DNA of 64,000 nucleotides from Arthrobacter mangrovi (lineage in GTDB: Bacteria; Actinomycetota; Actinomycetes; Actinomycetales; Micrococcaceae), in NCBI RefSeq assembly GCF_026011795.1, contig NZ_BRVS01000004.1, positions 186,001 through 250,000 of the forward strand, written 5' to 3'. The notes beneath the pieces were generated by a model. The model worked only from the letters and a program-made list of their open reading frames with translations, searched no databases and was not told where the DNA came from. Position 1 is the stretch's first letter. Each line of letters begins with the position of its first letter. Position numbers and translations under genes: made by a program. Positions 17,363-32,744 of this stretch are shown here, in pieces.

Positions 17363-17365
17363 CCG

Positions 17366-17755
17366 CTAGGCCGCCAGGGCAACGTCGGATCCCGATGCCA
17401 CGGACGCGCCGGCCAGCCTGCCGGCCTCCCCGGCCCTCTGCGCGCACCGGGCGGGCTTGGCCGCCTCGGCCGGAAGGACAGCGCTCAGGTTGCAGGGAAC
17501 CGGATCCTCACCGGCACATGCCGGCAGCGTCTGCGCGTCGGCGCACTCCTGCAGCTCCCGGGCGGCCTCGGCTGTTGCGGAGGCCGCCGCAAGATCCAGG
17601 ACGATTCCGAGACCCGGCATGAGCGCGTTCACCCGCCGGGCGACGGCATGCAGTGCCTGCACGTTCCGGGAATCCACGCTTCCCTTGACTTCGATCCTGG
17701 CGCTGTCGCAGTCCACGTCCATGCTCACCAGGACCTTGAGTTTGTCGCCCTCCAT
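17366..17755 (-). CDS. STAS-like domain protein
   Basis: 129 aa. The first ~80 residues have the alternating strand/helix layout of STAS domains (anti-sigma-factor antagonists): KVLVSMDVD, ARIEVKGSVD, a helix NVQALHAVARRVNALM, then GIVLDLAAAS. The usual phosphoacceptor Ser after the DLS motif is in a DLAAAS context. The tail is Ala/Cys-rich and not recognised. It starts 1 nt after the stop of the acetyltransferase-like gene, so the two are translationally coupled. Probably a divergent STAS protein; partner unknown. Confidence 0.6.
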   Translation of the reverse strand: MEGDKLKVLVSMDVDCDSARIEVKGSVDSRNVQALHAVARRVNALMPGLGIVLDLAAASATAEAARELQECADAQTLPACAGEDPVPCNLSAVLPAEAAKPARCAQRAGEAGRLAGASVASGSDVALAA

Positions 17756-17756
17756 G

Positions 17757-18164
17757 CTAAGCGGCTTCCGCCTTGCCGACGGACACCAGCACGGGTTTGC
17801 GCGCCGCACGGTTCGCTTCCGCCTTCCGCCAGGCGGCCTCGTCCTTGAGGATCTCCTCGAACGACTCGCGGAAACGCTCCCGCTCCCCGGCCGGAACCAG
17901 CTGGAGGTAGACGGGGTGGTTGAAGACCCGCTTGCGGACCTGGTGGCAGAACGGCAACACGGACAGCCGGCGGCTGTGCGCATCCGCCAGGGCGGTGCGG
18001 ATCAGCCGGTCGTCCAGGTCGGTGTCGCGGAATTCCTGGTCCACAGCGGTGTGAAGAAGCCACATCTGGTCGCCCTCAATGCGGTAGTGCAGGGATCCTG
18101 CGACCGCTCCATCAACGTAGGCGTCGTACTGCGAAGCACCGAAGTTGTTTCGAATGACCTGCAT
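17757..18164 (-). CDS. YjdJ-type GNAT-like acetyltransferase
   Basis: 135 aa, start ATG 18164 with AGAGGAGAG just upstream. The pattern matches the COG2388 minimal GNAT fold: AYVDGAVAGSLHYRI, then MWLLHTAVDQEFRDTDLDDRLIRTAL (shown in part) and SVLPFCHQVRKRVFNHPVY, where a Cys and the HP-x-Y end are typical. The usual GxGxA of the CoA loop is here DTDLDD, so CoA binding may be weakened. A TetR-type operator (18275-18293) lies 111 bp upstream, which suggests control by the TetR gene next door. First gene of a two-gene unit with the STAS-like protein. Confidence 0.65.
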   Translation of the reverse strand: MQVIRNNFGASQYDAYVDGAVAGSLHYRIEGDQMWLLHTAVDQEFRDTDLDDRLIRTALADAHSRRLSVLPFCHQVRKRVFNHPVYLQLVPAGERERFRESFEEILKDEAAWRKAEANRAARKPVLVSVGKAEAA

Positions 18165-18274
18165 GCTCTCTCCTCTGTTTCTCCCCTTCAGCCTCGGCCG
18201 TAGCTGGAGGCCGGCATTTCGGGCTGAAGGGTCCAGCGGCGCCTCCCCTGAAGGATCGGCACCGCCATCGGATC

Positions 18275-18293
18275 TTGCTTACAGGGTAAGCAA
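18275..18293. promoter_or_regulatory. Putative TetR operator, copy 1
   Basis: TTGCTTAC-AGG-GTAAGCAA, an 8-bp perfect inverted repeat with a 3-bp centre, between the TetR gene end and the acetyltransferase-like gene start. A further GCTTAC half-site follows at 18299-18304. The core GCTTAC-N3-GTAAGC recurs exactly at 19203-19221, which supports a shared DNA-binding protein. Confidence 0.65.
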
Positions 18294-18348
18294 AGCATGC
18301 TTACTTTATTTGCGCAAAACGTTCCATCGAAACTGGTCGAATTTTGAG

Positions 18349-19062
18349 TCAGCTGCGCAGCGTTTCGAGGCGTTCCAACAGTTGTTCCAGCGCTTCCTCG
18401 AACTCCTGCTCGGCCCGGTCCTCGGAGAGCAGGGACTGGAACTCCCGCAGCAGCGGGTAGCCTGACAGGTCGGCCGGGCGCGGGGGCCGCAACTCGGCCT
18501 CCTCGGCCGGCCCGACGTCCGCGCCCATGGCGGAAACCTCGAGCAGCAAATGCCCGAGCAGGAAACTGCTGAAGGCCCGGTAGGCATCCACGGCGGCCCG
18601 CTCGCTGAAGCCCGAGCCGGTCAGTGCGGCCAGGAAGGACTCCACCCAGCGCAGGCTGCGCAGCGGCGGCCGGACCCAGGGAGCCTCGGTCGGCCTGGTG
18701 GCAACCAGCGGGAACACCTGCGGCCGCGTCTGGGCCAGGCGCCGCGAACCGTGCGCCAGCCGCAGCAGGTAGTCCTGCCAGCCATGGACCGGCTCTACGG
18801 TGACTTCAGGGTCGCTGTAAAGTTCGTCCACTACGGATTCCACAATGCCGTCCAGCAGGTCCTCCCGCGAATGCACGTAGCGGTAGAGCGACATCGCCTC
18901 CACACCCAGTTCTTTGCCGAGCCGGCGCATGGTGAGCTGCCGGACTCCGAAGCGCTCCACATATTCAACGCCGGCCTCAAGGATCATCCCGCGCTCCAAG
19001 CGGGCGCGTTCGGCACCGGGTTCCTGGCTTCCGTCGTGGCCTGCTGGCGCTGGACCGGACAC
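18349..19062 (-). CDS. TetR-family transcriptional regulator
   Basis: 237 aa from GTG 19062, chosen for the GGAAGGGG 6 nt upstream; a TTG at 19086 is the alternative. Residues ~25-75 form the TetR HTH (RFGVRQLTMRRLGKELGVEAMSLYRYV), and the C-terminal part matches the TetR_C domain seen in tetracycline-repressor-like actinobacterial proteins. It would act as a ligand-relieved repressor. Two matching palindromes lie in its own divergent upstream region and upstream of the next gene on the same strand, so autoregulation and control of both neighbours are likely. Ligand unknown. Confidence 0.8.
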   Translation of the reverse strand: MSGPAPAGHDGSQEPGAERARLERGMILEAGVEYVERFGVRQLTMRRLGKELGVEAMSLYRYVHSREDLLDGIVESVVDELYSDPEVTVEPVHGWQDYLLRLAHGSRRLAQTRPQVFPLVATRPTEAPWVRPPLRSLRWVESFLAALTGSGFSERAAVDAYRAFSSFLLGHLLLEVSAMGADVGPAEEAELRPPRPADLSGYPLLREFQSLLSEDRAEQEFEEALEQLLERLETLRS

Positions 19063-19190
19063 TGTCAGCCCCTTCCTGCGGCTCAATCCAGCCTACGCTC
19101 AGGCGGGCGCCCCTGTCCCGGCATCCGGAACATCGGGGGAACGAAGGCGCCGTGTTTTCGTTATGCCGAGGGAGAACCGGCCTCCAATCG

Positions 19191-19226
19191 TTCGACCGGG
19201 CAGAGCTTACGCCGTAAGCTCATGGT
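19191..19226 (+). promoter_or_regulatory. Promoter with putative TetR operator, copy 2
   Basis: Palindrome GAGCTTAC-GCC-GTAAGCTC at 19203-19221 (8-bp arms, 3-bp centre) overlaps a possible -10 box TAAGCT (19215-19220), with TTCGAC (19191-19196) 18 nt upstream as a weak -35. The -10 box is 6 nt before the ATG of the 69-aa gene, so the mRNA is probably leaderless and repression would be by occlusion. Confidence 0.55.
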
Positions 19227-19436
19227 ATGGATGAAGAGTTGAAACAGGTTTGGGTCGCCTCGGCGGCGGTCGAATCCCTGCAGGGAGAAATTGACCAAGC
19301 CGAAAGCCAGCTCGACACCGCCATCGACGAAGCGGTGAAGGCCGGAGCTGATCCGGACGCAATCAGCAACGCGGCAAACCTCACCGCCACCGAGTTGAGC
19401 GACCGCGTCCCCGTGCTCCCGGCAGAACCGGCCTAG
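19227..19436 (+). CDS. Small helical protein, HTH-like
   Basis: 69 aa, acidic, predicted almost fully helical. The N-terminal part could form a short coiled coil (VESLQGEIDQAESQLDTAI) and the middle (EAVKAGADPDAISNAANLT) resembles the two helices of a small helix-turn-helix. No known family was recognised. No SD site; a TAAGCT box within a TetR-type operator lies 6 nt upstream, so it is probably leaderless and directly controlled by the divergent TetR regulator. A strong terminator follows, which supports expression as a single gene. Confidence 0.65.
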   Translation: MDEELKQVWVASAAVESLQGEIDQAESQLDTAIDEAVKAGADPDAISNAANLTATELSDRVPVLPAEPA

Positions 19437-19486
19437 CCAGGCTCCCCGGCGAAGGGAACGGCAGCAACAACTTACGCACAACAGAA

Positions 19487-19528
19487 GCACCGCCGCAGCC
19501 GGACGCTGCAGCGGTGCTGTTCCTTTTT
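19487..19528 (+). terminator. Rho-independent terminator
   Basis: Stem GCACCGC-C-GCAGC / GCTGC-A-GCGGTGC with one mismatch and a 5-nt loop, followed by TGTTCC and five Ts (19524-19528). It ends the 69-aa gene transcript. The minus strand also forms the hairpin, so it may insulate the small leftward gene beyond. Confidence 0.8.
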
Positions 19529-19548
19529 CCCGTAAGGCTCGAGACGGC

Positions 19549-19743
19549 TTAAGCCAAAGAGCCTGGGGCCGCGTCGCCCGGCAGGCTGACCGTGAACACG
19601 TTGGGGCCGCTGCGCGTGACCCTCACCCGATCCCGCGGGGCGTTGGCCTTGGTAGACACGTGCGCGATGGCGGCCTCCAGCGTGTGGTCCATCGTGGAGT
19701 GGTCCCAGATCTTGAGCGTCATCGAGTGCGATTCAAAGTTCAT
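19549..19743 (-). CDS. Small hypothetical protein
   Basis: 64 aa from ATG 19743 (GAAGAAAG about 13 nt upstream, weak). The sequence has a strand-helix-strand character (TLKIWDHSTMDHTLEAAIAH, then DRVRVTRSGPNVFTVSL). It resembles small conserved proteins of Micrococcaceae, but no domain name can be given. A longer open frame extends to 19938 but its extra N-terminus looks non-coding. It ends near the bidirectional hairpin at 19487-19528. Confidence 0.5.
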   Translation of the reverse strand: MNFESHSMTLKIWDHSTMDHTLEAAIAHVSTKANAPRDRVRVTRSGPNVFTVSLPGDAAPGSLA

Positions 19744-20505
19744 GCACCGCTGCTTTCTTCGTCGTTTTCCCGCCACCTCGTCGCTGAGGAAGCGGGTCCA
19801 CTGTATCCGGCCACCCACGGTGGGCCCATTGAATGTGACCGAAAGTGACCGCACGCACAGCCCTCGACCCGCCGCGCTGTGGCTGGCTGGGCGTCCGGAG
19901 CCCCTGACGCACTTGCAGGATCTCAACGCACTTGTCACTTGTCATGCGTCAATGACCGCCGTTCTCCTCTAGATGCACAGACCTGCCTCCGAGGCTGGGT
20001 GTACTGTCATCCGACCTTGGCTCCGCGCTCCATTGCCGATAGGGCACAGGAGATTCACCAAAGGCTGATGGGGCTCTCTACCGCAGGGAATGAAGACAGC
20101 GCCGCTGCACGCTTCACCCGGGAGCTGGTCTTGTCCCGGGCCACCCTGCACCGGGACCATACCGAGGCTGACGCACGTTCCAGGCAGAACGGCCGATGAT
20201 CACAGTCCCGCATCTGCGGCTAGAGCGCCAGGAGGTCTTGTTCGCTTGCCTGTACGCGCGGCGCCGATCGGACATAGTCACGGTTATCGGTGCTTTGGCG
20301 ACTTGGGACAAAACGACTCCTTCGGCTTGCTTGAATGATTCTTCGACGGCTCCCGATTGCGTCCGCAGCCGGCTAAGAGAGAGCCGCCTCTGAACGTCCC
20401 CGCGCAGGTGCTTCCGTTCCCGTTACGCATCGTAGCGCCCTCGAGGGCCATCAGTCCCTGGGACGGGTGCGGTCCGCCGCCGGCGCCCGCAACAGACGGG
20501 GGCAC
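19744..20505. other. Gene-poor stretch at left edge of the mandelate island
   Basis: 762 bp with short open frames on both strands and no convincing gene or RBS. On the plus strand at about 20030-20199 a peptide with RAQEIHQRLMGL is loosely reminiscent of the middle of PucR-type regulators and may be a decayed fragment, but this is weak. No terminal repeats or transposase remnants could be recognised. It looks like insertion or deletion debris. Confidence 0.4.
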
Positions 20506-21393
20506 CTACTTCAGCGCATCGGCGATCGTCTCTCGGAACCATGTCCGGGCGGACGATACGGGTGGTGCCCCGTTCCAGTAGAGAGAAACGTTGAACGTCG
20601 GGATGGCGAAGGGAAGCTCGCGAAAAGTCACGGGCTGCTGGGCGGCGAACAGTTCGGCGACGCGCAAAGGGACGATTGCCGCACAATCGTTGCTGGCCAC
20701 GATCTGTGGGAGCACGGAGAAGTGGTGGAGGCGGAGCACCACCCGCCGCTCGACACCCATGGATTCAAGCATGCGGTCGGCCTGGGAATGGCCGGAGGAC
20801 TGATGGATGGCAACATGACGAAGGGCAGCGAATTCGTCGAGTGCCAGCGGTTCGTCTGATCCCGCGAACGTTTCGGGCAGGACGCACACGTACCGTTCCT
20901 CATAGAGGATCTTGTGGTGTTCAGCCCCTTCGATGGGCACGCTGGCGACCGCGGCATCTATTTCTCCCCGCATCAGCCATTGGGACACCGAGTCGATCTG
21001 CATCGGGACGATTTCCAACGTCGCATGGGGGGCCTCATTCCCGAAGACCCGGAGAAGCGGCGGCAGAAAGGCCAGTTCCCCCAGGTCAGTGAGGCACAAG
21101 CGAAACTCCTGCCGCGTTGAGGCGGGGTCAAAGGCTCGTCCCGCTTCCACTGTCGCGTCGATCGCGGCGACGGCCGGCCTGATCGTTTCGAAAAGTTCCG
21201 TCGCCCGCCGGGTCGGCACCATTCCCTCTGCGGTGCGTGCGAAAAGCGGGTCTGCAAGCTGCTTGCGCAGCCTGCCCAGCGCGTAACTGACCGATGGCTG
21301 GGTAATCGACAGTTCCAGCGCGGCGCGGGTCAGACTTCCGGTCTCATAAATGGCAGTGAAGGCCCGGAGAAGATTCAGATCCATTCCTGTCAT
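20506..21393 (-). CDS. LysR-family transcriptional regulator
   Basis: 295 aa. N-terminal winged HTH (residues ~5-65: LLRAFTAIYETGSLTRAAL, then SQ-like ITQPSVSYALGRLRKQL), then a LysR substrate-binding domain of the NahR/DntR type, whose members sense aromatic acids. It is last in the leftward arm after the MHS permease, a decarboxylase remnant and the dehydrogenase. ATG 21393 has TATTCT 6 nt upstream and no SD, which suggests a leaderless transcript from its own promoter; the ATG at 21384 is a possible alternative. Likely regulator of one of the two arms of the mandelate gene set. Confidence 0.8.
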   Translation of the reverse strand: MTGMDLNLLRAFTAIYETGSLTRAALELSITQPSVSYALGRLRKQLADPLFARTAEGMVPTRRATELFETIRPAVAAIDATVEAGRAFDPASTRQEFRLCLTDLGELAFLPPLLRVFGNEAPHATLEIVPMQIDSVSQWLMRGEIDAAVASVPIEGAEHHKILYEERYVCVLPETFAGSDEPLALDEFAALRHVAIHQSSGHSQADRMLESMGVERRVVLRLHHFSVLPQIVASNDCAAIVPLRVAELFAAQQPVTFRELPFAIPTFNVSLYWNGAPPVSSARTWFRETIADALK

Positions 21394-21463
21394 GATCCAA
21401 GAATAGAGTCTGCCGATCTGACCCGCGCCTGTTATAGACGTCGAGGACTCGGTTATGGCTCTG

Positions 21464-22447
21464 CTATTTGGGCGTAGCCTGCAAGGCTTCCACTGCTTCG
21501 GCGGCGGCGGTACCCACTGACCTCGCCGCCTGGGCGAGGCCCGTAATCTCTTGTTCCGAGAGCGTGGGGAGCACGGGAACCAGCCGCCCGTCCCGAAACA
21601 CGGTGGGCACGGAAACGAAGGTGTCGGGAAGTTCGGGGAGCGCGCCGGTCCAGATCGTCGCCGGATGCACGCCCCCGGAAGCCATGGACTTGATGATCTG
21701 GGCGACTCCGAGGGGCGTGGTCCATCCGCTGCTACGGCCGGGCTTGAGGGCGGACCACCGGGAGAACCACCCTGTTATGTCGGCCGTGATTCGGTCCCGC
21801 TGGTCGGAACTCAGGACCAGGGGGACGCTGTTAACGGCAAGCGTGCTGTACAAGGGCACCTGCCCGTCGCCATGTTCACCGAGCACGAGGCCGGAAACGT
21901 GTTCCGGACGTGCCCCGATTTCCCGGCCGACGGCGGCACGGAAACGGATGGAGTCGTTGAGGCTGTAGCCGACGATGCGGTCGGGAGCGATGCAGGACAT
22001 CCGGTGCAGCGCGTCCGACAGGACGTCCACCGGGTTGGAGAGGAGCATGACCACTCCGTGGTCCCCGGCCAGGCGTTCGATGTCGGGCAGAAGGATCCTA
22101 AGCAGGCGGAGGTTGGCGAGGAGGAAGTCCCGACGGTCACCGTCCGGTGTTTCCGGCGCTGAAGCGGCGACGATGACCAGGTCGACGGGGAGGCCGGGCG
22201 GAGGCGGGCCGACGACCAGTTGGGTATGGGTTGAACCCGCGAGGATCTGTGCTTCGGCGATGTCGATGGCGTGCGCCTGCAGGATGTTGTCCCGTAGGTC
22301 GGTCAGGTACACGGTGTCGGCCAGCCCTTCAACGGCTAGTCGTTCAACGACACCGGAACCGATCAGCCCGGCCGCGCCGATAACGGCCACGGTGGAGGGC
22401 CATGCGCTGCGGCTACCGCCACTGCTGGTTAGGTCGTTCTTGGTCAT
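21464..22447 (-). CDS. Lactate/malate dehydrogenase-family 2-hydroxyacid dehydrogenase, unusual specificity residue
   Basis: 327 aa. Rossmann motif VIGAAGLIG (22-30), Asp after strand 2 (YLTD, D50), substrate Arg in the mobile-loop/helix (R105/R106), catalytic Asp D165 and Arg R168 in LNDSIRFR, and catalytic His H192 in GEHGDG. All catalytic parts of L-lactate/malate dehydrogenases are present. The specificity position (Gln in lactate, Arg in malate enzymes) aligns with E99 in SAPETP, so neither substrate is expected. Given the benzoylformate decarboxylase and benzaldehyde dehydrogenase nearby, an L-(S)-mandelate or related aryl-hydroxyacid dehydrogenase is a reasonable inference. GGACAG serves as RBS. 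It follows the MHS permease and the decarboxylase remnant on the same strand. Confidence 0.7.
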   Translation of the reverse strand: MTKNDLTSSGGSRSAWPSTVAVIGAAGLIGSGVVERLAVEGLADTVYLTDLRDNILQAHAIDIAEAQILAGSTHTQLVVGPPPPGLPVDLVIVAASAPETPDGDRRDFLLANLRLLRILLPDIERLAGDHGVVMLLSNPVDVLSDALHRMSCIAPDRIVGYSLNDSIRFRAAVGREIGARPEHVSGLVLGEHGDGQVPLYSTLAVNSVPLVLSSDQRDRITADITGWFSRWSALKPGRSSGWTTPLGVAQIIKSMASGGVHPATIWTGALPELPDTFVSVPTVFRDGRLVPVLPTLSEQEITGLAQAARSVGTAAAEAVEALQATPK

Positions 22448-22535
22448 GGTGGTGCTGTCCTGTCACTCTGGGTAGTCGTTCTTGAACATGCCTCTGTCCG
22501 GGCCGACACTGCAGATCCGGACAGAGGCGGCAGCC

Positions 22536-22700
22536 CTAAGACCAGACGGCGTACCGGCGCGGCCCAGGCTGAAGACTGATGTAACGAAAGGCCGCCGAAA
22601 TCGGGCCAAGGAACGGCAACTCGCTCGAGCCGAGGTTTCCGAAAATGGTCGGCAGACCATTCTTCATCGTCAGCTCGTAGCCAACTTCTTTGGCAGGCAT
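22536..22700 (-). pseudogene. N-terminal remnant of a benzoylformate decarboxylase gene
   Basis: A 54-codon frame with an intact start (ATG 22700, AAAGGAA upstream). Its middle, LPTIFGNLGSSELPFL...FRYI, is clearly the thiamine-enzyme entry motif of benzoylformate decarboxylases (NPGSNELPF followed by FRYILGLQ). After FRYI the frame shifts into an unrelated tail, and some 480 residues of the enzyme are missing. Pro is replaced by Leu in the motif. FRYI is not found at the same place in the intact gene at 27346 (which has FDFV), so this came from a different paralogue and not from a recent copy. It lies between the permease and dehydrogenase genes. Confidence 0.7.
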
Positions 22701-22804
22701 GATCGTTTCGTTCCTTTCACTTGCAGTCGACGATACGGACGCAAGCGATATTGATCCACAGGCTTTCTGTGCAATTTGTATAATCTGCCTCTTTGTGCGG
22801 TGCA

Positions 22805-24127
22805 TTAGCTTCGCAGGTCCCGCCCCTGCGGCTCCTTGACGGTGGAGACGGCCACCAGGGAGACCACGGATAGAGCTGAGATGTAGATACCGATGGCCAT
22901 CCCGCCCCCGGTCTCGGCCAAAATAAGCTCGGCGATCATGGGCGCAAAGGCACCGCCGAGGATCGCCCCGATGGCGTAACCGATCGACACGCCGGAGTAG
23001 CGGATGTTGGCCGGGAACATCTCCGCATACAGGGCCGCCTGGGGGCCGTAGGAGAGACCGAGCCCGATGGTGAGGACCAGGACCGAGACGGTGAACCAGA
23101 GGATGTCCCCGGTATCTATCAGCATGAACATAGGCACTGCCCACAGCAGAAGCGCGACGTAACCAATCTGGAAGGTCCGTATCCGGCCCAGCTTGTCCGA
23201 GATGATGCCCCCGAACATCGTGAAGACCAGCCAGGAGAACGCCGCCAGCGTGCTCGCGAGCAGAACGGGGCCGCGCTCCATACCGAGGTGCTTCGTTGCA
23301 TATGCCGAGAAGAAGGCGATGAGCAGGTAGCCGGCAGCGTTGTTGGCGAGGAAGATAAGGGCAGTCTGCAGTACCTGCTTCGAGTTGGAGCGGAAGAGTT
23401 GGCGCAGAGGCGCGCTTGACTCAGCTTTGCGCTGCTGCATTTCCTTAAAGACCGGGCTCTCGTCCACCGAGCGCCGGATGAGGAAACCCACCAGAATGAG
23501 GACGACGGAGAAGAGGAACGGCAGCCGCCAGCCCCAGGCCAGAAAGTCCTCATTGCTCAACAGCGTCGTCGTGAGAAACATGACGAACGTCGCCAGGATC
23601 ATCCCGCAGGGCACACCGATCTGCGGGTAAGCACCAAAGAACCCGCGCTTGCTTAGGGGTGCATGTTCCACGGACATCAAAGCCGCGCCACCCCACTCGC
23701 CACCTGCCGAGAAACCCTGGACGATGCGCAACACAACGAGCAGGATCGGCGCCCAGACACCCCAAGCCGCATAGGTCGGCAAGAGGCCGATCAGCGCGGT
23801 GGCGGCACCCATAAGGACAAGTGTGAATACGAGCATCATCTTGCGCCCCACTCTGTCGCCCAAGTGACCGGCCACGACCGCACCCAAGGGGCGGAACAGA
23901 AAGCTGATACCCAGCGACGCCCACGAGACAATCTGTGCCAGCGCCGGATTCTCGGTGGTCATCGGCGCAAAATACAAGCTAGCGAGAACGAGCCCGGCAG
24001 CTTGGGCATAAATGAAGAAGTCGTACCACTCAATCGTCGTGCCCACGAGTGTCCCCGCCAGGACTTTGCGCTGTTCCTTTTGGCTGGAGACCGCAACCCG
24101 TTGCGACGCCATTTCTCTGTTCGACAT
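22805..24127 (-). CDS. MHS-family MFS transporter, probable aromatic acid permease
   Basis: 440 aa from ATG 24127, with AGGAG 5-6 nt upstream; the frame extends to 24187 without a better start. The first helix has GTTIEWYDFFIYAQ, the MHS mark, and the loop 2-3 motif GHLGDRVGRKMML is intact. Twelve membrane helices. It heads the leftward arm of the island (permease, decarboxylase remnant, dehydrogenase, LysR), which suggests uptake of mandelate or another aryl-hydroxyacid. The related MFS at 12472-13794 has the same length and layout but is not near-identical. Confidence 0.8.
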   Translation of the reverse strand: MSNREMASQRVAVSSQKEQRKVLAGTLVGTTIEWYDFFIYAQAAGLVLASLYFAPMTTENPALAQIVSWASLGISFLFRPLGAVVAGHLGDRVGRKMMLVFTLVLMGAATALIGLLPTYAAWGVWAPILLVVLRIVQGFSAGGEWGGAALMSVEHAPLSKRGFFGAYPQIGVPCGMILATFVMFLTTTLLSNEDFLAWGWRLPFLFSVVLILVGFLIRRSVDESPVFKEMQQRKAESSAPLRQLFRSNSKQVLQTALIFLANNAAGYLLIAFFSAYATKHLGMERGPVLLASTLAAFSWLVFTMFGGIISDKLGRIRTFQIGYVALLLWAVPMFMLIDTGDILWFTVSVLVLTIGLGLSYGPQAALYAEMFPANIRYSGVSIGYAIGAILGGAFAPMIAELILAETGGGMAIGIYISALSVVSLVAVSTVKEPQGRDLRS

Positions 24128-24615
24128 GGGAACTCCTAGGTACTTCGAAGGGAAGGTATCGATCAGGTGCTTTTCGTCTCGCACCATAACCAGAGGCTGC
24201 AGACCATCATTCGACGCACAGGGTGCAGAAGTAGGCTTCGAGCAACCCCGGGACGGTCCCCGGGCGTGTAATGGAAGCAGCTTGCCTCCGGCACCTGCAC
24301 CGTGCCGCTCGTCACAAAGCGGCCCTACTCACTGTAGGGAAAAGCAAGTCATTGAGCCAATCGATAAATTGCATTGATTTCATTGGATCTATCTATTGCC
24401 CGCCCTGTCTTCGTTTCTCCATGCCATTCCGGACGGAGCCCTCCAGCGTGCGGGCGAAAGCTCCCGGGGAAGGACCCGTGGCATGATCGATCTCATGAGG
24501 GCCACGAGCGCGCCGATTCGCCGCATCGGCGCAATAGGCTCCGCGCGTGACCCAATGGCCCCTTGTTTCGGTGATCCCTCGGCACCCCTTAGAGACCAGA
24601 TGTAGGAGGCCATCC
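24128..24615. promoter_or_regulatory. Divergent control region of the two mandelate arms
   Basis: 488 bp between the leftward permease and rightward LysR gene. The part 24340-24410 is clearly more AT-rich than its surroundings and holds CAAT-cgataa-ATTG (24358-24371) and repeated CATTGAT/CATTGGAT words, a plausible place for promoters and LysR sites. A further dyad around GGCATGATCGATCTCATGAGGGCC lies at about 24479-24502. No gene was recognised here. Confidence 0.4.
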
Positions 24616-25488
24616 GTGGTGGATTTGAACCTGATCCGGGTATTTTCTGCTGTCATCGAGGAAGGCTCGGTGACAGCGGCCGCGGAGCGATTGAAGATGT
24701 CCCAGCCGTCCGTCACCCAAGGTTTGAACAGATTGCGCCGGGCAACGGGAAGTGATCTATTCCGGCGCCAAGGGCGTGGAATTGCCCCCACCCGCGCGGC
24801 CTTGCAGCTGTATGAAGAGGTCGGCAGGCTTCCCATGATTGCCGATGCGGCTATTGATCGGCTCTCGCGGTTTGACCCGCCGACCGCCCGGACTACCTTT
24901 CGCGTCGCGCTAACTGATCTCGGGCAGACTGTATTCCTCCCGGCGCTGGTGTCGGGCCTCGCGGCGGCTGCTCCGCACTGCAGTCTGGATGTCGTTAATC
25001 TCGACACCGAGACGGCAGGCGACGGCCTTGTTGCGGGGGACCTGGACCTCGCCGTCTCGTCTACGCTCCTCGAGGGAGCGCTGCGCACTTCGATCATTCG
25101 CTGGGATCGGTACTGCTGTGTGTCGAAGCGCGATCGGTTCGGAGGCGGAACTCCCACCTTGGAAGAAATGACGTTGCTGCCTCGGGTGGTGGTCCGGGGA
25201 ACGACAGGACATGCGCTCATGCACTCCCTCCTGCCGCCCCCTGTGGAAGGTTCGGTTCACGTGTCAGGGTTCGGGGCAATTCCGGGGATCCTGGCTGCAT
25301 CAGAGCTGATCGCCTTCGTCCCGGAGGTGGTGACCGCGGATTGGGTCGCTCGATGGGGCTTCGCGGTCAGTCCCTTGCCGCGTGAGGAGTTCGCGGCCCC
25401 CGTTCGCGCCCACGCGGCTCTCGACACCTCATCCTCGGCAACGGCTTGGTTCGTTGAGTGGGCGATCGAGACAATGCGGTCCCTATAG
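24616..25488 (+). CDS. LysR-family transcriptional regulator
   Basis: 290 aa from GTG 24616, chosen because AGGAGG (24604-24609) lies 6 nt upstream; the adjacent GTG 24619 is equally in frame. Residues 1-60 are a LysR winged HTH (DLNLIRVFSAVIEEGSVTAA, SQPSVTQGLNRLR). The effector domain resembles NahR/aromatic-acid sensors and the protein at 20506-21393, though the two are clearly divergent. It precedes the benzaldehyde dehydrogenase and benzoylformate decarboxylase genes on the same strand and probably activates them, binding in the upstream or the 25489-25701 gap. Confidence 0.8.
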   Translation: MVDLNLIRVFSAVIEEGSVTAAAERLKMSQPSVTQGLNRLRRATGSDLFRRQGRGIAPTRAALQLYEEVGRLPMIADAAIDRLSRFDPPTARTTFRVALTDLGQTVFLPALVSGLAAAAPHCSLDVVNLDTETAGDGLVAGDLDLAVSSTLLEGALRTSIIRWDRYCCVSKRDRFGGGTPTLEEMTLLPRVVVRGTTGHALMHSLLPPPVEGSVHVSGFGAIPGILAASELIAFVPEVVTADWVARWGFAVSPLPREEFAAPVRAHAALDTSSSATAWFVEWAIETMRSL

Positions 25489-25701
25489 CGACGCCTAGCT
25501 CAGCGTCCGCCCGCCTCTCCATCTTTGGAGGGTTTAGGGCATCAGTCTTTCGGAGGGTAGTCATGGGACCAACTCATAAGCTGGACCTATGGAACCTGCC
25601 TTCATTCTTTATTAGACCCCGGTGATCAGTCTCACCTAACCTCTATATGTCTTCTCAGAACTGCGGTTCGGAGACCACTTCGATTACCGAAAGAGGCTTT
25701 C
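25489..25701 (+). promoter_or_regulatory. Upstream region of the benzaldehyde dehydrogenase gene
   Basis: 213 bp without a gene. It has a TATATG box (about 25645-25650) in CTCTATATGTC and GAAAGAGG just before the ATG at 25702. A promoter here would drive the dehydrogenase-decarboxylase genes. Confidence 0.35.
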
Positions 25702-27210
25702 ATGACTGCTACGGCCACCACCTCCCCCGACGTCCGCACTGCCGCCGTCTCCGTTATTGACGGACTTCAGGCCGGAAGCTTCATTGGCGGCGTCTGGAGG
25801 GACGGCTCCTCGAAGCGTCCTATCACTGTCACCGCTGCGTTGGACGGGACCGTGCTGCGCCGCTTCTCTGGAGCGTCTGCCCAAGATGTGGACCAGGCGT
25901 ACGAAACCGCCGCAGCTGCCCAAAAGGAATGGGCCAACGTTCCCCCTACCGAGCGCGCCGCCATCATCAGCCGGGCCGCTGACATCCTGGAGCGCCGTCG
26001 ACCCAAGCTCACCGCGCTGCTGCGCATCGAATCTGGATCCTCGGCTCTTAAGGCCAATATCGAGGTCAGCGCCGCCGTGGGTATCACGCGTGAGTCCGCA
26101 ACGTTCCCGAACCGGTCCCACGGGACCCTGCATCCGTCCGCTTTCCCGGGCAAGGAAAACCGCGTTTACCGCGAGGCCCTCGGCGTCATCGGCGTGATCT
26201 CCCCCTGGAACTTTCCCTTGCACCTGTCCATTCGTTCCGTTGCTCCGGCCCTTGCCCTGGGCAATGCGGTCGTCCTGAAGCCGGCCTCGGACACCCCGGT
26301 CTCCGGCGGACTGGTCATCGCCGAGATCTTCGAGGAAGCCGGCCTCCCCCAGGGCCTGCTGTCCGTCGTGGCCGGCGCCGGGTCGGAGATCGGAGATCAC
26401 TTCGTCCAGCATCCGATCCCTTCGATGATTTCCTTCACCGGATCGACCCCGGTGGGACAACGCGTGGCATCCCTGGCCGCCCAGGGCCACCTGAAGAAGG
26501 TCGCTCTGGAACTGGGCGGGAACGCTCCACTGGTGGTCCTGGACGACGCCGACCTTGAGGGGGCCGTCAACGGCGCCCTGATGGCCAAGTTCCTCCACCA
26601 GGGCCAGATCTGCATGGCCGCGAACCGCATCATCGTGGACGCGTCCGTCTACGACGAGTTCGTTGACCGCTTCGCCGCCCGGGCACGAGAGCTCGTGGCC
26701 GGGGACACCACCGACGACAGCGTCATTATCGGACCGGTCGTCAACGACGAACAGGTTGCCACGGTGGCCGGGCTGATTGAGGCCGCCCGCCAGCAGGGCG
26801 CCCGTGAGGTCGTCGGGGGCCAGCTCGACGGGCGTCTGGTGGGCCCGCATGTCTTCGCCGACGTGACCGAGGACATGGACATCGCTAGGGACGAAATTTT
26901 CGGTCCCGCCGTCGGGATCATCAAGGCCCATGGCGAAGAAGAAGCTCTGCGGATCGCCAACAACACCGAATTCGGGTTGTCCTCCGCCGTCTTTACCCGG
27001 GACGTTGAGCGCGGTGTCCGGTTTGCCCGCGGCGTGAAGGCAGGCATGACCCACGTCAACGACTCCACGGTTAACGACGAACCGCATGTCATGTTCGGCG
27101 GCGAGAAGAACTCCGGCCTGGGCCGGTTCAACGGCGAGCAGGCGATCGAGGATTTCACGACCCTGCACTGGGTGGGCGTGCGCTCTGCCATGGGGCCCGT
27201 CCCGTTCTGA
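25702..27210 (+). CDS. Aldehyde dehydrogenase, probable NAD(P)-benzaldehyde dehydrogenase
   Basis: 502 aa, complete ALDH fold. The NAD-binding region holds VISPWNFPL and FTGSTPVGQRV, the general-base Glu is in ELGGNAPLV, and the catalytic Cys in HQGQICMAANRI; C-terminal GEKNSGLGRF is typical. The sequence belongs to the benzaldehyde/vanillin-type dehydrogenase branch. It sits 135 nt before the benzoylformate decarboxylase gene, whose product benzaldehyde it would oxidise to benzoate. No benzoate-degrading genes are in the window, so benzoate must be processed elsewhere. Confidence 0.8.
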   Translation: MTATATTSPDVRTAAVSVIDGLQAGSFIGGVWRDGSSKRPITVTAALDGTVLRRFSGASAQDVDQAYETAAAAQKEWANVPPTERAAIISRAADILERRRPKLTALLRIESGSSALKANIEVSAAVGITRESATFPNRSHGTLHPSAFPGKENRVYREALGVIGVISPWNFPLHLSIRSVAPALALGNAVVLKPASDTPVSGGLVIAEIFEEAGLPQGLLSVVAGAGSEIGDHFVQHPIPSMISFTGSTPVGQRVASLAAQGHLKKVALELGGNAPLVVLDDADLEGAVNGALMAKFLHQGQICMAANRIIVDASVYDEFVDRFAARARELVAGDTTDDSVIIGPVVNDEQVATVAGLIEAARQQGAREVVGGQLDGRLVGPHVFADVTEDMDIARDEIFGPAVGIIKAHGEEEALRIANNTEFGLSSAVFTRDVERGVRFARGVKAGMTHVNDSTVNDEPHVMFGGEKNSGLGRFNGEQAIEDFTTLHWVGVRSAMGPVPF

Positions 27211-27345
27211 TCCCCCGACGGATTCGGATCGGCGATCGCTGCCCCTGTCGGCAACGTGTGCGGCATGGTCCGGATCGGCAGCAAGCCGCCGCCAGCACCA
27301 CGCCCGCGGCTACCTACGCAGCGAATATTTGAAAGAGGAACGCGC

Positions 27346-28953
27346 ATGACCACCAAGAAGACCGTTCTGGAATCGAGCCTGGATGTGTTTCGTGCCCACG
27401 GCGTGACCACCGTCTTCGGGAACCCCGGGTCCAATGAACTCCCGTTCCTCGCTGGCCTCGACGAAGACTTCGATTTCGTCCTTGGCCTGCACGAGCAGGT
27501 GGTCGTGGGCATGGCCGAGGGCTATGCCCGCGCCACAGGGCGACCGGCCCTAGTGAATCTTCATGCGGCGTCAGGTTCCGGCAATGCCATGGGGGCGCTG
27601 ACCAACGCCCACTACGGGCACATCCCCATGGTCATTCTGGCCGGGCAGCAGGTTCGGCGCACCGTGGGCCAGGAGACAATGCTCGCCAGCGCGGATGCCG
27701 CAACACTGCCGGCGCCGCTCGTGAAGTACTCGCACGAACCCCTCGCTGCCGCCGACGTGCCGCGGACCCTGGCCCAGGCCGTTTTTGAGACCTCTATCCA
27801 GCCGTGCGGTCCGGTGTACGTGTCGGTCCCCCTCGACGACTGGGCCGAAACGGCCCTTGAAGACGACTCGCTGCTGACTGAGCGCTCAGTCGCCACCTCC
27901 GGCGACCTGGCTCCCGCGTTGGCGCAGGAACTTATCTCCATCGTTGACGGCGCGAAGAGCCTTGCCCTTATCGTCGGCCCCCAGGTGGACGCCGCTGCCG
28001 TGCAGGACCCTGCCATCTTCGAGGCAGTGGCTTCTCTGGCGGAGAAGGCCAATGCCTCGGTCTACATTGCGCCCTCTCCATCGCGGTGTCCCTTCCCGAC
28101 CACGCACCCGAATTTCGAGGGTGTCCTCGTCCCGGGCATTACGTCGGTACGAGAGCGCCTCGCCGGCCACGACGTGGTCTTCGTCCTGGGCGCCCCCGTC
28201 TTCCGCTACCACCGCTGGGAGCCGGGCAACTACCTTGCCGCAGGCACACAGGTCGTACACCTCACTCAGGACCCCCGCGAAGCAACACGGGCACCCTACG
28301 GGCGGGCGGTCGTCGCCGAGGTCGCCAGCGCAGCAAAGACCCTGTCTGAGGGCGTGACGGACCGCGGCCAGCGGCGCGGGGCACGCGGCACCCGCGCCCT
28401 GCCCGCGGCCAAGACCTCCCCGGAAGGCATGACGGGCACCGAAATCCTCGAAGTCCTCAACGCCCACGCCAACGATACCGTGGCCTACGTGAACGAGACG
28501 ACCACCCTGGATCTGGAATACCTCGAGCGCATCGCCATCGAGCGCCCAAGCATGTACCACTTCCCGGCATCGGGCGGCCTCGGTTTCGGCCTCCCGGCGG
28601 CGGTCGGAATGTCGCTGGGCGATCCCGAGAAGACCATCGTCGCGACGGTGGGCGATGGCTCCGCCAACTACGGGATCACTGCCCTGTACACCGCGGCCCA
28701 GCGCCAGACGCGAACAGTGTTCGTCATCGTCAACAACTCCAGCTACGGGGCTCTGGCGGCGTTCGCCCAGCGCATGGGTGTGCCGGACGTTCCCGGTCTC
28801 CAGCTCGGCAGGATCGATTTCGTCGCCATTGCCGAAGGCTACGGGGTTCCGGCCCAGAGGACGGAGACCCGCGAGGAATTCGAGCTGGTCTATAGGAAGG
28901 CCTTGGAGGGAAGCGGCCCCTTTCTCATCGATGCACAGGTCGTCGCCGACTAA
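27346..28953 (+). CDS. mdlC: Benzoylformate decarboxylase
   Basis: 535 aa from ATG 27346 (GAGGAA 6-7 nt upstream); typical length ~530. Landmarks of the Pseudomonas enzyme are all kept: the active-site Ser in NPGSNELPF (S29), cofactor-activating E50 in LGLHEQ, H73 in NLHAASGSGNAMG, the second active-site His in FRYHRWEPG, and the ThDP/Mg motif GDGSANY...NNSSYG. It decarboxylates phenylglyoxylate to benzaldehyde. The flanking benzaldehyde dehydrogenase and 2-hydroxyacid dehydrogenase fit the mandelate pathway. A stretch of Arg/Gly/Ala (about residues 340-360) between domains two and three looks like a variable linker. Confidence 0.88.
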   Translation: MTTKKTVLESSLDVFRAHGVTTVFGNPGSNELPFLAGLDEDFDFVLGLHEQVVVGMAEGYARATGRPALVNLHAASGSGNAMGALTNAHYGHIPMVILAGQQVRRTVGQETMLASADAATLPAPLVKYSHEPLAAADVPRTLAQAVFETSIQPCGPVYVSVPLDDWAETALEDDSLLTERSVATSGDLAPALAQELISIVDGAKSLALIVGPQVDAAAVQDPAIFEAVASLAEKANASVYIAPSPSRCPFPTTHPNFEGVLVPGITSVRERLAGHDVVFVLGAPVFRYHRWEPGNYLAAGTQVVHLTQDPREATRAPYGRAVVAEVASAAKTLSEGVTDRGQRRGARGTRALPAAKTSPEGMTGTEILEVLNAHANDTVAYVNETTTLDLEYLERIAIERPSMYHFPASGGLGFGLPAAVGMSLGDPEKTIVATVGDGSANYGITALYTAAQRQTRTVFVIVNNSSYGALAAFAQRMGVPDVPGLQLGRIDFVAIAEGYGVPAQRTETREEFELVYRKALEGSGPFLIDAQVVAD

Positions 28954-29038
28954 ACCGCCGCAAGGCGTCAGCACAGGGACAGGCTCATGCCGGCAAGCGA
29001 GCAGAGTTTGAGTCCTCGGAAAGAAAAGGGGCCATGAA

Positions 29039-29956
29039 GTGAAAACGGCAATTGTGGGGGCGGGTGCCATGGGCCAACTCTTCGGCGCCCGGTTGCAGCT
29101 GGCAGGCACGGACGTAGTCTTCCTCGACACGAACCAGGCCACCATCGATGTGCTCAACGCGCGGGGAGTGACTCTCCAGACCGAGTCTCGCACCGAGCAC
29201 ACTCCAGCCCGAGCCGCCCGAGCCTCCGAGCTGGACGAAACGTTCGATCTGTTCATCATCTTCACCAAGGGATTCCATACGCAGGCGGCCGTAGCCTCCA
29301 TCGCGCACCTCATCGGCGCTGAGAGCTGCGGCTTGACGCTGCAGAACGGCCTCGGGAATGCCGAACGCCTCCAGGAGTACTTCGGACCATCGAAAACCCT
29401 GCTGGGAGTGACCGACTTCCCCGCCGATCTGTCAGCACCCGGCATGGTGTCCAGCAACAGTCGTGGGAAAGTAAGACTCGGGGCCCTCGGCAACGTACCC
29501 AGGTTGCCCAACATCGCCCAACTCTTGGACTCCGCTGACCTGCATGCGGCAGTGGAGCAGGACATCCGAATCCCCGTGTGGGAAAAGGTCGCTTTCAACG
29601 CCGCTTTGAACACACTCAGCGCAGTCACTGGCCTAACCGTAGGAGGGATAGGCGCCGATCCCCACGCCCGCGGACTCGTTGCCTCGGTGCTTGAGGAAAC
29701 CCTGGCTGTGGCCGGACGCCTGCAAATCGACGTCTCCCGGCAGCGCATCGAGGCAGCGCTCGATAACGCATTCGCTCACCACACACATCACAAGACCTCC
29801 ATGTTGATGGACCGGGAGGCAGGCCGCCCCACAGAGATTGACACAATTGGAGGAGCGGTCGTTCGACTCGGACAGGACAACGGCGTCAGCACTCCCGTAC
29901 TGGCTACCTTGTGCGAACTGGTCCGCACCGCTGCACGCCCAGGGGATAACCGATGA
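29039..29956 (+). CDS. Ketopantoate reductase-family dehydrogenase, candidate D-mandelate dehydrogenase
   Basis: 305 aa from GTG 29039. NAD(P) motif GAGAMG (7-12), KPR-type Lys K77, LQNGLGN (101-107), the catalytic Lys K183 and Asn N187/N191 in PVWEKVAFNAALNTL, and the C-terminal ApbA_C helical domain with a conserved E-I-D near TEIDTIGG. PanE makes pantoate, but the KPR superfamily also includes NAD-dependent D-2-hydroxyacid/D-mandelate dehydrogenases of lactic acid bacteria. Being 85 nt after mdlC, this is the natural candidate for D-(R)-mandelate oxidation to phenylglyoxylate. PanE function cannot be excluded by sequence alone. Confidence 0.75.
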   Translation: MKTAIVGAGAMGQLFGARLQLAGTDVVFLDTNQATIDVLNARGVTLQTESRTEHTPARAARASELDETFDLFIIFTKGFHTQAAVASIAHLIGAESCGLTLQNGLGNAERLQEYFGPSKTLLGVTDFPADLSAPGMVSSNSRGKVRLGALGNVPRLPNIAQLLDSADLHAAVEQDIRIPVWEKVAFNAALNTLSAVTGLTVGGIGADPHARGLVASVLEETLAVAGRLQIDVSRQRIEAALDNAFAHHTHHKTSMLMDREAGRPTEIDTIGGAVVRLGQDNGVSTPVLATLCELVRTAARPGDNR

Positions 29957-30777
29957 TGGACGGCCCCCGCTTAACTGGTCCATGAACACCACGAGCGCAA
30001 CCGGCTGGCATAAAACGTTCAGTCTGCGCAGCACTGTCACCAGTTCAATGCTTCTCCTGTCACGCCGCTTCGGAAGGACGGGCGTCTACGGTCACCCGAT
30101 GCCGCCCGCCGTTCCTAAGCCGTACGGCAGTGGGCAGAACTCAAGCCGCGTCCATCCTCGAGGCACGCGAGAACTACGACGACGCCGTAACCGGGCAGGG
30201 CTGAGGTCCGCTCGCCCGTTCTGTGCGTGCTTTTGAGATCTGGACGGTCACCCCGGCAGACCAAGATCGGAGGAATGCAATGGACTCCCAAGACGAGGAT
30301 CTTTAGAAGCGGTTCGAGCGCTAGCGGAGTCTAGAACGGGGCTCACTGAGAGCAGCGTGCAGGCAGAGCCACGGCATGCTGCCGTGTTTGTGAAGTTGTT
30401 GTCCGGTCCGCTGGACACCGCTTGGCTGCTCTTAATGCCAGCCCGCGACCCCTGTCGCATAAGCCGGTCCTCCACCGCACCGCTCACTTGCCGTAAACCA
30501 CGCACAGAAAACGCTGTGTTTCCGGGGTTCTCGGATTGGCGTATGCCCCGCCCACAAAAAAGCCCGCTGATGGCACCTCAAGCGCTCCAAGCCAGCGAAC
30601 TCCACTGGTTCCTAATTGTCTGTCGTCAGTCACTGCCCGACGTCGATCTTGAGCTGAAATCCCCGCGATGGCCTCGTCAACTGCTGGCTTCCAGAATGCA
30701 AGCCAGCATACTGCCGGCGCTACGAACAGGGGACAAGCACTATGAGAAAGCGACAAGTGGATGGAGGCCCTACAGCG
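29957..30777. other. Gene-poor stretch between the mandelate island and dnaB
   Basis: 821 bp with only short, uncharacteristic open frames. One aborted start is seen: GGAGGAATGCAATGG (about 30270) gives an 8-codon frame that ends at TAG, and in-frame stops recur. No tRNA, transposase or terminal repeat was recognised. The abrupt change from coherent genes to broken frames on both sides of the island suggests past insertion or deletion near dnaB. Confidence 0.4.
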
Positions 30778-32148
30778 CTACCCGCTCTCGACCGCCATGT
30801 TGGCGAAGCGCGAGTAGTGGCCCTGGAAGCCCACGACGATGGTTTTCGTGGGGCCGTTACGGTGCTTCGCCACGATCACGTCCGCCTCGCCGGCGCGCGG
30901 CGATTCCTTGTCGTAGATGTCCTCGCGGTGCAGCAGGATGACCATGTCCGCATCCTGCTCGATGCTGCCGGATTCGCGGAGGTCGGAAACCATCGGCTTC
31001 TTGTCCGTCCGCTGCTCGGAACCACGGTTCAGCTGCGACAGGGCGATGACGGGCACCTCGAGCTCTTTGGCCAGCAGCTTCAGCGCACGGGAAAACTCGG
31101 ACACTTCCTGCTGGCGGGATTCGACGCGCTTGCCGGACGACATTAGCTGCAGGTAGTCCAGCACGACCAGCTTCAGGTCGTGCCGCTGCTTGAGCCGGCG
31201 GCACTTCGCCCGGATCTCCATCAAGGACATGTTCGGGCTGTCGTCAATGAAGAGCGGCGCGTCATTCATCCGGCCCATCGTGGTGGCGATCTTGCCCCAC
31301 TGCTCGTCCTTGATCGTGCCTTTGCGGAGGTCCTGCAGGCCGATCGTGGCCTCCGCCGACAGCAGGCGCATGGCAATCTCGTTGCGTCCCATTTCCAGCG
31401 AGAAGAACACGGTGGTCATGTTGTTCTTGATCGCGGCCGATCGAGCGAAATCCAGTGCGAAGGTCGACTTGCCGACCGCGGGCCGGGCCGCGATGACGAT
31501 CATCTGGCCGCCGTGCAGGCCCTGGGTGAGCTCGTCGAGCTCGTAGAAGCCGGTGGGGACGCCGGTAAGCCCCTCGCCGCGATGCCCGGCGGACTCGATC
31601 TCGTCCACCGTGGACTCGATGATGTCCTTGAGCGGCACGTAGTCTTCGGCGCTGCGCCGCTCGGCCACAGTGTAGATCTCCGCCTGCGCCTGGTTGACGA
31701 TGTCGTCGACTTCGCCGTCCTGGGAGTAGCCGAGCTGGACGATCTTGGTGCCGGCGTTGACGAGGCGGCGGAGCACGGCACGCTCACGGACGATCTCCGC
31801 GTAGAAGCCGGCGTTGGCCGCCGTCGGAACCGACTGGATCAGGGTGTGCAGGTACGCCGGACCGCCGATGCGGGTGATTTCGCCGCGCTTGGTCAGCAGG
31901 TCGGACACGGTGACGGCGTCGGCCGGTTCGCCGCGGCCGTAGAGGTCAATGACGGCCTCATAGATGCTCTCGTGGGCCGGCCGGTAGAAGTCATTGCCGC
32001 GCAGGATCTCCACGACGTCGGCGATGGCGTCCTTGGACAACATCATGCCGCCCAGCACCGATTGTTCGGCGACGAGGTCCTGCGGCGGCGTCCTGGCGAA
32101 ATCCGGTTCCCGACTTGTTTGGGCGGAGTCCGATTGAACTGCTGTCAC
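30778..32148 (-). CDS. dnaB: Replicative DNA helicase DnaB
   Basis: 456 aa from GTG 32148; the frame runs to a GTG at 32193 (471 aa) that has AAGGAG too close to be useful, so the start is not settled. N-terminal DnaB domain (TPPQDLVAEQSVLGGMMLS), then the RecA-like C-terminal domain with Walker A in AARPAVGKST, the SLEMGRNEIAMRLL region and Walker B in VVLDYLQLM. It forms the hexameric helicase that unwinds the replication fork. No intein interrupts it. It usually lies next to rplI in actinobacteria; here about 6 kb of other genes separate the two. Nine DnaA-box-like sites lie upstream. Confidence 0.93.
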   Translation of the reverse strand: MTAVQSDSAQTSREPDFARTPPQDLVAEQSVLGGMMLSKDAIADVVEILRGNDFYRPAHESIYEAVIDLYGRGEPADAVTVSDLLTKRGEITRIGGPAYLHTLIQSVPTAANAGFYAEIVRERAVLRRLVNAGTKIVQLGYSQDGEVDDIVNQAQAEIYTVAERRSAEDYVPLKDIIESTVDEIESAGHRGEGLTGVPTGFYELDELTQGLHGGQMIVIAARPAVGKSTFALDFARSAAIKNNMTTVFFSLEMGRNEIAMRLLSAEATIGLQDLRKGTIKDEQWGKIATTMGRMNDAPLFIDDSPNMSLMEIRAKCRRLKQRHDLKLVVLDYLQLMSSGKRVESRQQEVSEFSRALKLLAKELEVPVIALSQLNRGSEQRTDKKPMVSDLRESGSIEQDADMVILLHREDIYDKESPRAGEADVIVAKHRNGPTKTIVVGFQGHYSRFANMAVESG

Positions 32149-32346
32149 CGCTGCCTGCTTTCTGTCCTCGACGCTGCTTCTGCCAGCCGGCACACTCCTT
32201 GGCGGAGGGGGCCGGCCGATTCCTATGTATCAACCGCTTCCGACACTTCCGCCCGGCGCCGGGCAGGGCAATATAGCCCCGGACGGCGCCGAAACAAGGA
32301 GGAATACCCGGTACGTTAGTCCTCTTTGTGCGGCCCGCAAAGCCAG

Positions 32347-32606
32347 TTATCCACCGGTCCTGTGGATACATTGTGGATTGGCTGGCGTGTCTTGTGCACA
32401 GACTGTGTGGATAACTGTGGATAACCTTGTTAACTCGGCAGTAACATGCCTCTGACCTGCATAAATGCCCTGCACAGCCTGTGGATCAAAGAAAATCAGC
32501 GTGATCTTTTCCCCAACACTGTGGGTTTGACAAGTGTGGGAAAGGGCCGTAGGGGACGAATGTCCACACCGTTATCCACAGGATGCGCGGCTTCTCCCGT
32601 GGATAA
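32347..32606. other. DnaA-box cluster upstream of dnaB
   Basis: Nine 9-mers match TTATCCACA with at most two changes. Three are perfect: 32406-32414 and 32416-32424 (minus orientation, exactly 10 bp apart) and 32572-32580 (plus). Others: TTATCCACC 32347-32355; TGTGGATAC 32361-32369; TGTGGATTG 32372-32380; TGTGGATCA 32480-32488; ATGTCCACA 32560-32568; CGTGGATAA 32598-32606. The density is like that of a replication origin. The lack of dnaA and dnaN here makes a DnaA-titrating or regulatory locus, or a former origin copy, more likely than the main oriC. Confidence 0.7.
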
Positions 32607-32744
32607 CGCCGTGGTTCTTCGCGGCTGGGCCTGCATCGATGCCCGATGGGACCTGTTCGGCGGACGGCATAGCCCCAAAATCGGGTGGCTGCCATTCGCG
32701 ACCCCGCCCCAAGGTCCCGCGAACGTGCCCGTAGGATTAATCAC

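Follow-up and report, generated by a model that had tools for sequence, protein, structure and literature searches.

A candidate racemase-free mandelate island in Arthrobacter mangrovi with two NAD-type hydroxyacid dehydrogenases of different families

We describe an inserted island of seven genes in a stretch of 64,000 nucleotides of Arthrobacter mangrovi (assembly GCF_026011795.1, contig NZ_BRVS01000004.1, positions 186,001 to 250,000; hereafter the window), which we consider somewhat likely to convert both enantiomers of mandelate, or of a ring-hydroxylated mandelate, to benzoate by means of two dehydrogenases using nicotinamide adenine dinucleotide (NAD), a benzoylformate decarboxylase (BFD) and an aldehyde dehydrogenase (ALDH). 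The gene identities and the insertion are held with high confidence, while the substrate, cofactor, stereochemistry and regulation, as well as the history of the two arms of the island, are what we infer from them. The classic mandelate pathway uses a mandelate racemase and an S-mandelate dehydrogenase linked to flavin mononucleotide (FMN). Neither of them is found by Pfam among the island genes, in agreement with the initial annotation of this stretch, and because these two defining parts are absent the island, which would work like a mandelate pathway, falls outside the classic mdl set.

The genome of the window (G000; 4.43 Mb in 52 contigs) holds the seven genes as intact open reading frames where the initial annotation had placed them, in two arms diverging from 24188-24546, and their families were assigned by Pfam and NCBIfam profile matches. 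The left arm, on the minus strand, comprises a permease of the metabolite/H+ symporter (MHS/MFS) type (22805-24187), a dehydrogenase of the lactate/malate superfamily (LDH-like; 21464-22447) and a LysR-type regulator (LysR1; 20506-21393). The right arm, on the plus strand, begins with a second regulator divergent from the permease (LysR2; 24547-25488) and continues with the ALDH (25702-27210), the BFD (27346-28953) and a dehydrogenase of the ketopantoate-reductase family (KPR; 29039-29956). Both regulators match HTH_1 and LysR_substrate. The permease, proposed to take up the hydroxyacid, matches MFS_1/Sugar_tr and reaches 398 bits against TIGR00883, under the cut-off of 443; its homologues of 44-53% identity occur at six of the loci fetched from relatives (L015, L016, L018, L019, L022 and L062). 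That these genes are chance open reading frames is ruled out by their families, the cut-offs and their conserved neighbours.

The BFD scores 615.6 bits against the equivalog NF005485 (curated cut-off 493), which places the decarboxylation step of the classic mdl pathway in the island, and when aligned to the solved BFDs 6qsi and 7orx it keeps the motifs NPGS, LHE, NLHA, FRYH and YGAL..F, so that it has all the active-site residues attributed to it earlier. The ALDH (Aldedh) is closest among solved structures to 3r64, a 'NAD dependent benzaldehyde dehydrogenase' (599.6 bits), followed by 4-hydroxybenzaldehyde dehydrogenases with 595 bits and less, and the benzaldehyde dehydrogenase step is thus assigned by similarity. 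The two enzymes together support the mandelate/phenylglyoxylate type that had been proposed for the cluster.

As for the LDH-like protein, its closest named relatives are found in Arthrobacter (71-72% identity) and then in Microbacteriaceae (47-50%). It matches Ldh_1_N/Ldh_1_C and conserves R105, D165, R168 and H192, which we take to correspond to the catalytic R109/D168/R171/H195 of the LDH numbering, as well as D50, the Asp of NAD sites; its structure model (pLDDT 84.5) has the LDH/MDH fold, with Thermus LDH as the best Foldseek match and archaeal MDH among the first, and membership of the L-lactate/malate dehydrogenase superfamily is clear from domains and catalytic residues. Position 102 carries Gln in lactate dehydrogenases and Arg in malate dehydrogenases. 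The corresponding residue here is Glu99, and Glu occupies this position in all 14 distinct members of the clade (an alignment of 16 rows, in which L015/L053 and L016/L054 each stand for one contig present twice), against one (L023) of 29 other LDH/MDH sequences of the same scan, which were found by similarity rather than drawn at random and otherwise have Arg (26), Leu (1) and Met (1). Since it carries Glu and not Gln or Arg, the enzyme belongs, judged by the specificity residue, with neither the malate nor the lactate dehydrogenases. The clade also conserves a segment like GWF.RWS.L.PGRSSGWTTP. Within the superfamily it looks undescribed, and a limited search of the open-access literature, with subscription journals mostly outside it, found no description of a mandelate dehydrogenase of the LDH/MDH family.

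The KPR protein contains ApbA/ApbA_C and conserves D30, which ends strand 2, as well as N103, K183, N187 and E266, with the Lys, Asn and Glu presumably catalytic in the roles known from PanE. Among solved structures it comes closest to one protein with three entries (8wl1 and its kin, 158 bits), for which no relevant paper was found in the open-access literature, then to 2ew2 (106 bits) and, in fifth place, to 3wfi (105 bits), which we take to be the D-mandelate dehydrogenase of Enterococcus. An Asp ends strand 2 in the window protein, in all eight related KPR sequences, in 3wfi and in 8wl1, and because of this acidic residue the use of NAD rather than NADP would fit the enzyme. The same residue, together with the place beside BFD in seven of nine genomes, speaks against a biosynthetic pantoate gene, which was considered and rejected on these grounds, no search having been aimed at a separate panE. 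NAD-dependent D-mandelate dehydrogenases of this family are described from Enterococcus (PMC12350541, PMC4230899).

The linkage of the two dehydrogenases to BFD was examined in a family sample of 395 genomes, with thresholds of E 1e-40 for KPR, 1e-30 for the LDH-like protein and 1e-100 for BFD. The KPR gene occurs in nine of them and lies within 4.1 kb of BFD in seven, in each case in a BFD/ALDH cluster (the window genome, G185, G225, G282, G001, G374 and G112); in G148 its neighbour is an ALDH, on a short contig separate from that of BFD, and G338 has a 14-kb contig with both the KPR and the LDH-like gene and no BFD. The LDH-like gene occurs in eight genomes and is near BFD in four, namely the window genome, A. 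silvisoli (G308), G020 and G007. In Microbacteriaceae the genes for LysR, LDH-like protein, ALDH and BFD follow in one order at five of six loci (five genomes), the contig of the sixth ending inside ALDH, and three of these loci continue with a permease of 49-53% identity. An order-level sample of 386 genomes (E 1e-40) gave the LDH-like gene in two, both already among those found. LysR1 is the partner of the LDH-like gene, beside which it recurs in L060 (80% identity) and L062 (79%), and a copy of LysR2 (80%) adjoins BFD in A. silvisoli (L016). On the conserved synteny that the initial annotation had asked to be checked, the linkage speaks for both dehydrogenases.

BFD itself was found in 34 of the 395 genomes, in 35 regions, several of them cut by contig ends; four regions hold the LDH-like gene, seven the KPR gene, 25 neither of them, and the window is the only one with both. 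It follows that relatives have the two dehydrogenases as alternatives, and that the window combines them. A close ALDH (at least 60% identity) is present in nine of the 35 regions, and all nine hold the LDH-like or the KPR gene. The proposal that two NAD(P) enzymes oxidise both mandelate enantiomers is therefore supported in so far as each gene sits independently with BFD, mostly with a similar ALDH, in other genomes, and we regard it as likely that both enzymes act on aryl-2-hydroxyacids entering BFD. Its stereochemical part stands on knowledge of the families: enzymes of the L-LDH/MDH superfamily act on the S form and those of the KPR/D-mandelate dehydrogenase family on the R form, and for this reason opposite stereospecificity is proposed here, which seems reasonably probable. 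Five genomes of the same genus (L113-L117) have a BFD 82-83% identical to that of the window and neither dehydrogenase; near it stands a fused molybdopterin gene resembling xanthine dehydrogenase in L113, with similar genes in L114, L115 and L117, and L115 also shows a flavoprotein of the fumarate reductase type.

If the proposal holds, the permease would import the hydroxyacid, its S form would be oxidised by the LDH-like enzyme and its R form by the KPR enzyme, NAD serving both, BFD would decarboxylate the resulting benzoylformate to benzaldehyde, and ALDH would yield benzoate to be passed to a benzoate dioxygenase of the host, with the two LysR proteins controlling the two arms. The host has benA-like sequence at the ends of two contigs (C25 and C33, the first 881 bases), scoring 579 bits apiece across 299 of 433 positions, incomplete and under the full-length cut-off; the copies are 98.3% identical to each other over 881 bp and reflect either a recent duplication or an assembly split.

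A trace of how the arms came together may be preserved between the permease and the LDH-like gene, where the N-terminal remnant of a second BFD, unseen in the initial annotation, spans 54 codons on the minus strand (22536-22700; NF005485 positions 4-41, E 2.1e-5). Among the fetched loci, and apart from the window copy, its best-scoring relative is the BFD of L062/L109 (G020), with 60.5% identity over 38 residues, and the cluster of L062 runs BFD-ALDH-amidase-LDH-like-LysR1-nitrilase-permease. The left arm may accordingly be pictured as the rest of a second pathway copy (LDH-like gene, LysR1, permease and BFD stump), once like that of L062, from which BFD, ALDH and amidase would have been lost. 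A right arm of the other type (LysR2-ALDH-BFD-KPR) would then have been joined to it and would supply BFD and ALDH, and through this joining of two types both enantiomers would be covered without a racemase. A 12-bp inverted repeat after the remnant was set aside as a hairpin, its fold being no better than that of shuffled sequences (z-score -1.3).

The clusters of relatives give hints on the precursor. Nitrilases of one clade, whose best solved relatives are nitrilases, occur in L061 and L062 (84% identical), L139 (72%; 12722-13924, plus strand) and L019 of Microbacterium (60%), in the last case 1.2 kb beyond the permease. L061 and L062 also have an amidase (66%), and the terminal part of another (70%) borders the contig edge of L015/L060; among the CN_hydrolase matches of the window genome the nearest is 25% identical to the nitrilase clade. 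Because these clusters add a nitrilase across several genera, precursors like mandelonitrile are suggested, and the route probably starts with a hydroxynitrile or an amide in the relatives bearing these genes and with the acid in the window island. A more specific and tentative proposal, toward which we lean slightly less than away from it, is that the LDH-like clade consists of dedicated NAD-dependent (S)-aryl-glycolate dehydrogenases marked by the Glu, joined in the window with a KPR-type (R)-dehydrogenase in a fully NAD-linked pathway without racemase, and working in sister clusters behind a nitrilase on plant cyanohydrins (mandelonitrile or 4-hydroxymandelonitrile).

The extent of the island was defined by comparison with a near relative (G085), which has 51 bp in place of 10,918 bp of the window (19860-30777) between collinear flanks (11198-19859 and 30778-39697) that align in pieces of 86-95% identity; opposite 34233-34302, G085 in turn has some 2.5 kb that the window lacks. 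Third-position G+C content is 0.70-0.81 in the seven island genes and 0.85-0.94 in 19 of the 21 genes longer than 300 amino acids called outside it, the other two having 0.78 and 0.80, with calls from a simple caller that is itself biased to high third-position G+C. One relative is no proof of direction, but the lower third-position G+C of the island genes favours gain by the window strain rather than loss by G085. That the island integrated at a tRNA or through an integrase was considered and dropped, since no tRNA was found in the window, no direct repeat was found to flank the island and no integrase is among its seven genes; its non-coding ends (19860-20505 and 29957-30777) were read through, but no search aimed at remains of mobile elements was made there. 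A location on a known plasmid was rejected too: the LDH-like gene is in no plasmid record at E 1e-20, and the 25 plasmid records with BFD are all less than 60% identical, in a set from which records very near the window genome were possibly left out. To the left of the island lie a large oxidase linked to flavin adenine dinucleotide with a cysteine-rich domain (4698-7562, minus strand) and another enzyme of the thiamine diphosphate (ThDP) type (10579-12435, minus strand), which stands outside the insertion because most of the gene is shared with G085.

The initial annotation had also raised the possibility that a racemase or an FMN enzyme elsewhere in the genome carries the pathway, and candidates for both exist. 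Seven MR_MLE_C matches are present, none recognised by NCBIfam as mandelate racemase: three are above the cut-off of their model, as talarate/galactarate dehydratase (L001), o-succinylbenzoate synthase (L006) and enolase (L007), and four below that of the nearest model, as glucarate dehydratase (L004, just below, and L002), talarate/galactarate dehydratase (L003) and muconate cycloisomerase (L005), with L002, L003 and L005 well under it. The talarate/galactarate dehydratase of the genome is 33% identical to a mandelate racemase domain, and against the same domain the enolase-superfamily genes near the LDH-like gene in L065 and near KPR in L137 reach 29-30%, below that value. There are also two full-length FMN_dh genes. 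Homologues of these (E 1e-100), however, are present in 10 of 10 genomes of the genus; BFD is absent at E 1e-100 from three of these (G038, G085 and G136), of which G085 carries counterparts of both genes with 94% identity. For l-iLDH of Pseudomonas stutzeri, a report gives mandelate activity below detection until Val-108 was changed to Ala, a residue that the printed primer places after FTLST (PMC3526519). With positions matched by eye, this second specificity residue is Met (FSLSTM) and Leu (FTLSTL) in the two enzymes of the genome and Ala (SSASS) in an FMN enzyme linked to BFD in G262; the first does not separate the three, all of which have Gly. The two flavin enzymes thus look lactate-like in their residues, none being recognised as of mandelate type, and it appears very improbable that a chromosomal FMN enzyme oxidises mandelate, either alone or together with a racemase of the enolase superfamily. 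The G262 pair itself (L143, 9234-11932, minus strand), where a BFD match with two in-frame stops adjoins that FMN dehydrogenase, looks like a decayed classic mdl pair.

It is also improbable, if less so, that only one of the dehydrogenases serves the pathway, the KPR protein being a true ketopantoate or side-product reductase or the LDH-like protein a leftover of a decayed left arm. Such a view would suit the single occurrence of both genes among the 35 BFD regions and the mere stump of BFD in the left arm, but in other genomes either gene is linked to BFD independently of the other, both reading frames are undamaged and encode the catalytic residues, KPR shares its acidic residue with the D-mandelate dehydrogenase, and the LDH-like gene keeps its own LysR and permease. 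More serious, although we still hold it unlikely, is that the same chemistry acts on a ring-hydroxylated mandelate such as 4-hydroxymandelate, derived from cyanohydrins of the dhurrin type or from aryl-C2 fragments of lignin, and feeds 4-hydroxybenzoate. The conserved Glu could hold a ring hydroxyl, 4-hydroxybenzaldehyde dehydrogenases score barely lower than 3r64 for ALDH, the nitrilases of sister clusters fit such a substrate, and the BFD of P. fluorescens also acts on 4-hydroxybenzoylformate according to work cited in PMC7760541; against this, the solved structure nearest to the ALDH is that of a benzaldehyde dehydrogenase, the BFD falls inside the benzoylformate equivalog and the host has benA-like sequence.

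The conversion of both mandelate enantiomers by the two NAD enzymes, which we prefer, has several observations weighing against it. In four of the eight genomes with the LDH-like gene (G338, G038, G203 and G177), the region read shows no close BFD; that of G338 is cut by contig ends, and those of G038 and G177 contain only distant ThDP enzymes of about 25% identity to BFD. In G203 (L065, 3966-10076) an LDH-like gene of 52-53% identity stands directly behind an enolase-superfamily (MR_MLE) gene and what resemble, by eye, ABC transporter genes, with no BFD nearby, which is possibly an arrangement of racemase and single dehydrogenase or one for another substrate. The substrate of the LDH-like enzyme may therefore be wider. 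G007 has the LDH-like gene beside BFD and no close ALDH in the region, and BFD need not serve mandelate since 25 of its 35 regions hold neither dehydrogenase. A Glu in the substrate pocket does not readily suit a phenyl ring without substituents, and it is conceivable that both dehydrogenases take one and the same enantiomer. The BFD remnant is also like the BFD of L137, at a lower score (64.7% over 34 residues), a locus with KPR and no LDH-like gene, so that the origin proposed for the left arm is not firm.

Should the proposal be right, a function would be named for a small LDH/MDH clade whose members otherwise pass as malate or lactate dehydrogenase, NAD enzymes useful for making chiral hydroxyacids would be available for both mandelate enantiomers, and the island would represent a pathway assembled from two modules that relatives mostly use singly. 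Compared with known systems, the island resembles mdl of P. putida in the BFD and benzaldehyde dehydrogenase steps to benzoate, whereas in place of the racemase and the FMN-linked S-mandelate dehydrogenase it has two NAD-type dehydrogenases, a LysR pair and an MHS-type permease. Acinetobacter uses mandelate without a racemase, by separate D- and L-mandelate dehydrogenases that are membrane-bound flavoproteins; the replacement of the racemase by two dehydrogenases of opposite stereospecificity is as proposed for the island, whose enzymes are NAD-type and of two other families. With the L-lactate/malate dehydrogenase superfamily the LDH-like protein has in common the fold, the NAD site and the catalytic Arg/Asp/Arg/His, but it carries Glu instead of Gln (lactate) or Arg (malate), together with its conserved segment. 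The D-mandelate dehydrogenase of Enterococcus (PMC12350541, PMC4230899), which we take 3wfi to be, shares with KPR the family, the strand-2 acid and the catalytic residues, whereas the similarity is only moderate (105 bits) and KPR stands in a catabolic BFD cluster. The bzf cluster of Pseudomonas sp. LLC-1 likewise has LysR, BFD, an MFS transporter and ALDH with no racemase and no FMN enzyme, but it lacks a hydroxyacid dehydrogenase and mandelate does not support growth of its host (PMC7760541); to such a set the island adds two dehydrogenases. The claim of the initial annotation that this is a distinct design of the pathway therefore goes too far, given the Acinetobacter and Enterococcus precedents: the racemase-free plan with two dehydrogenases and the D-mandelate dehydrogenases of the KPR family are known, and the novelty appears to lie in the LDH-like clade and in the combination of all-NAD enzymes in one island.

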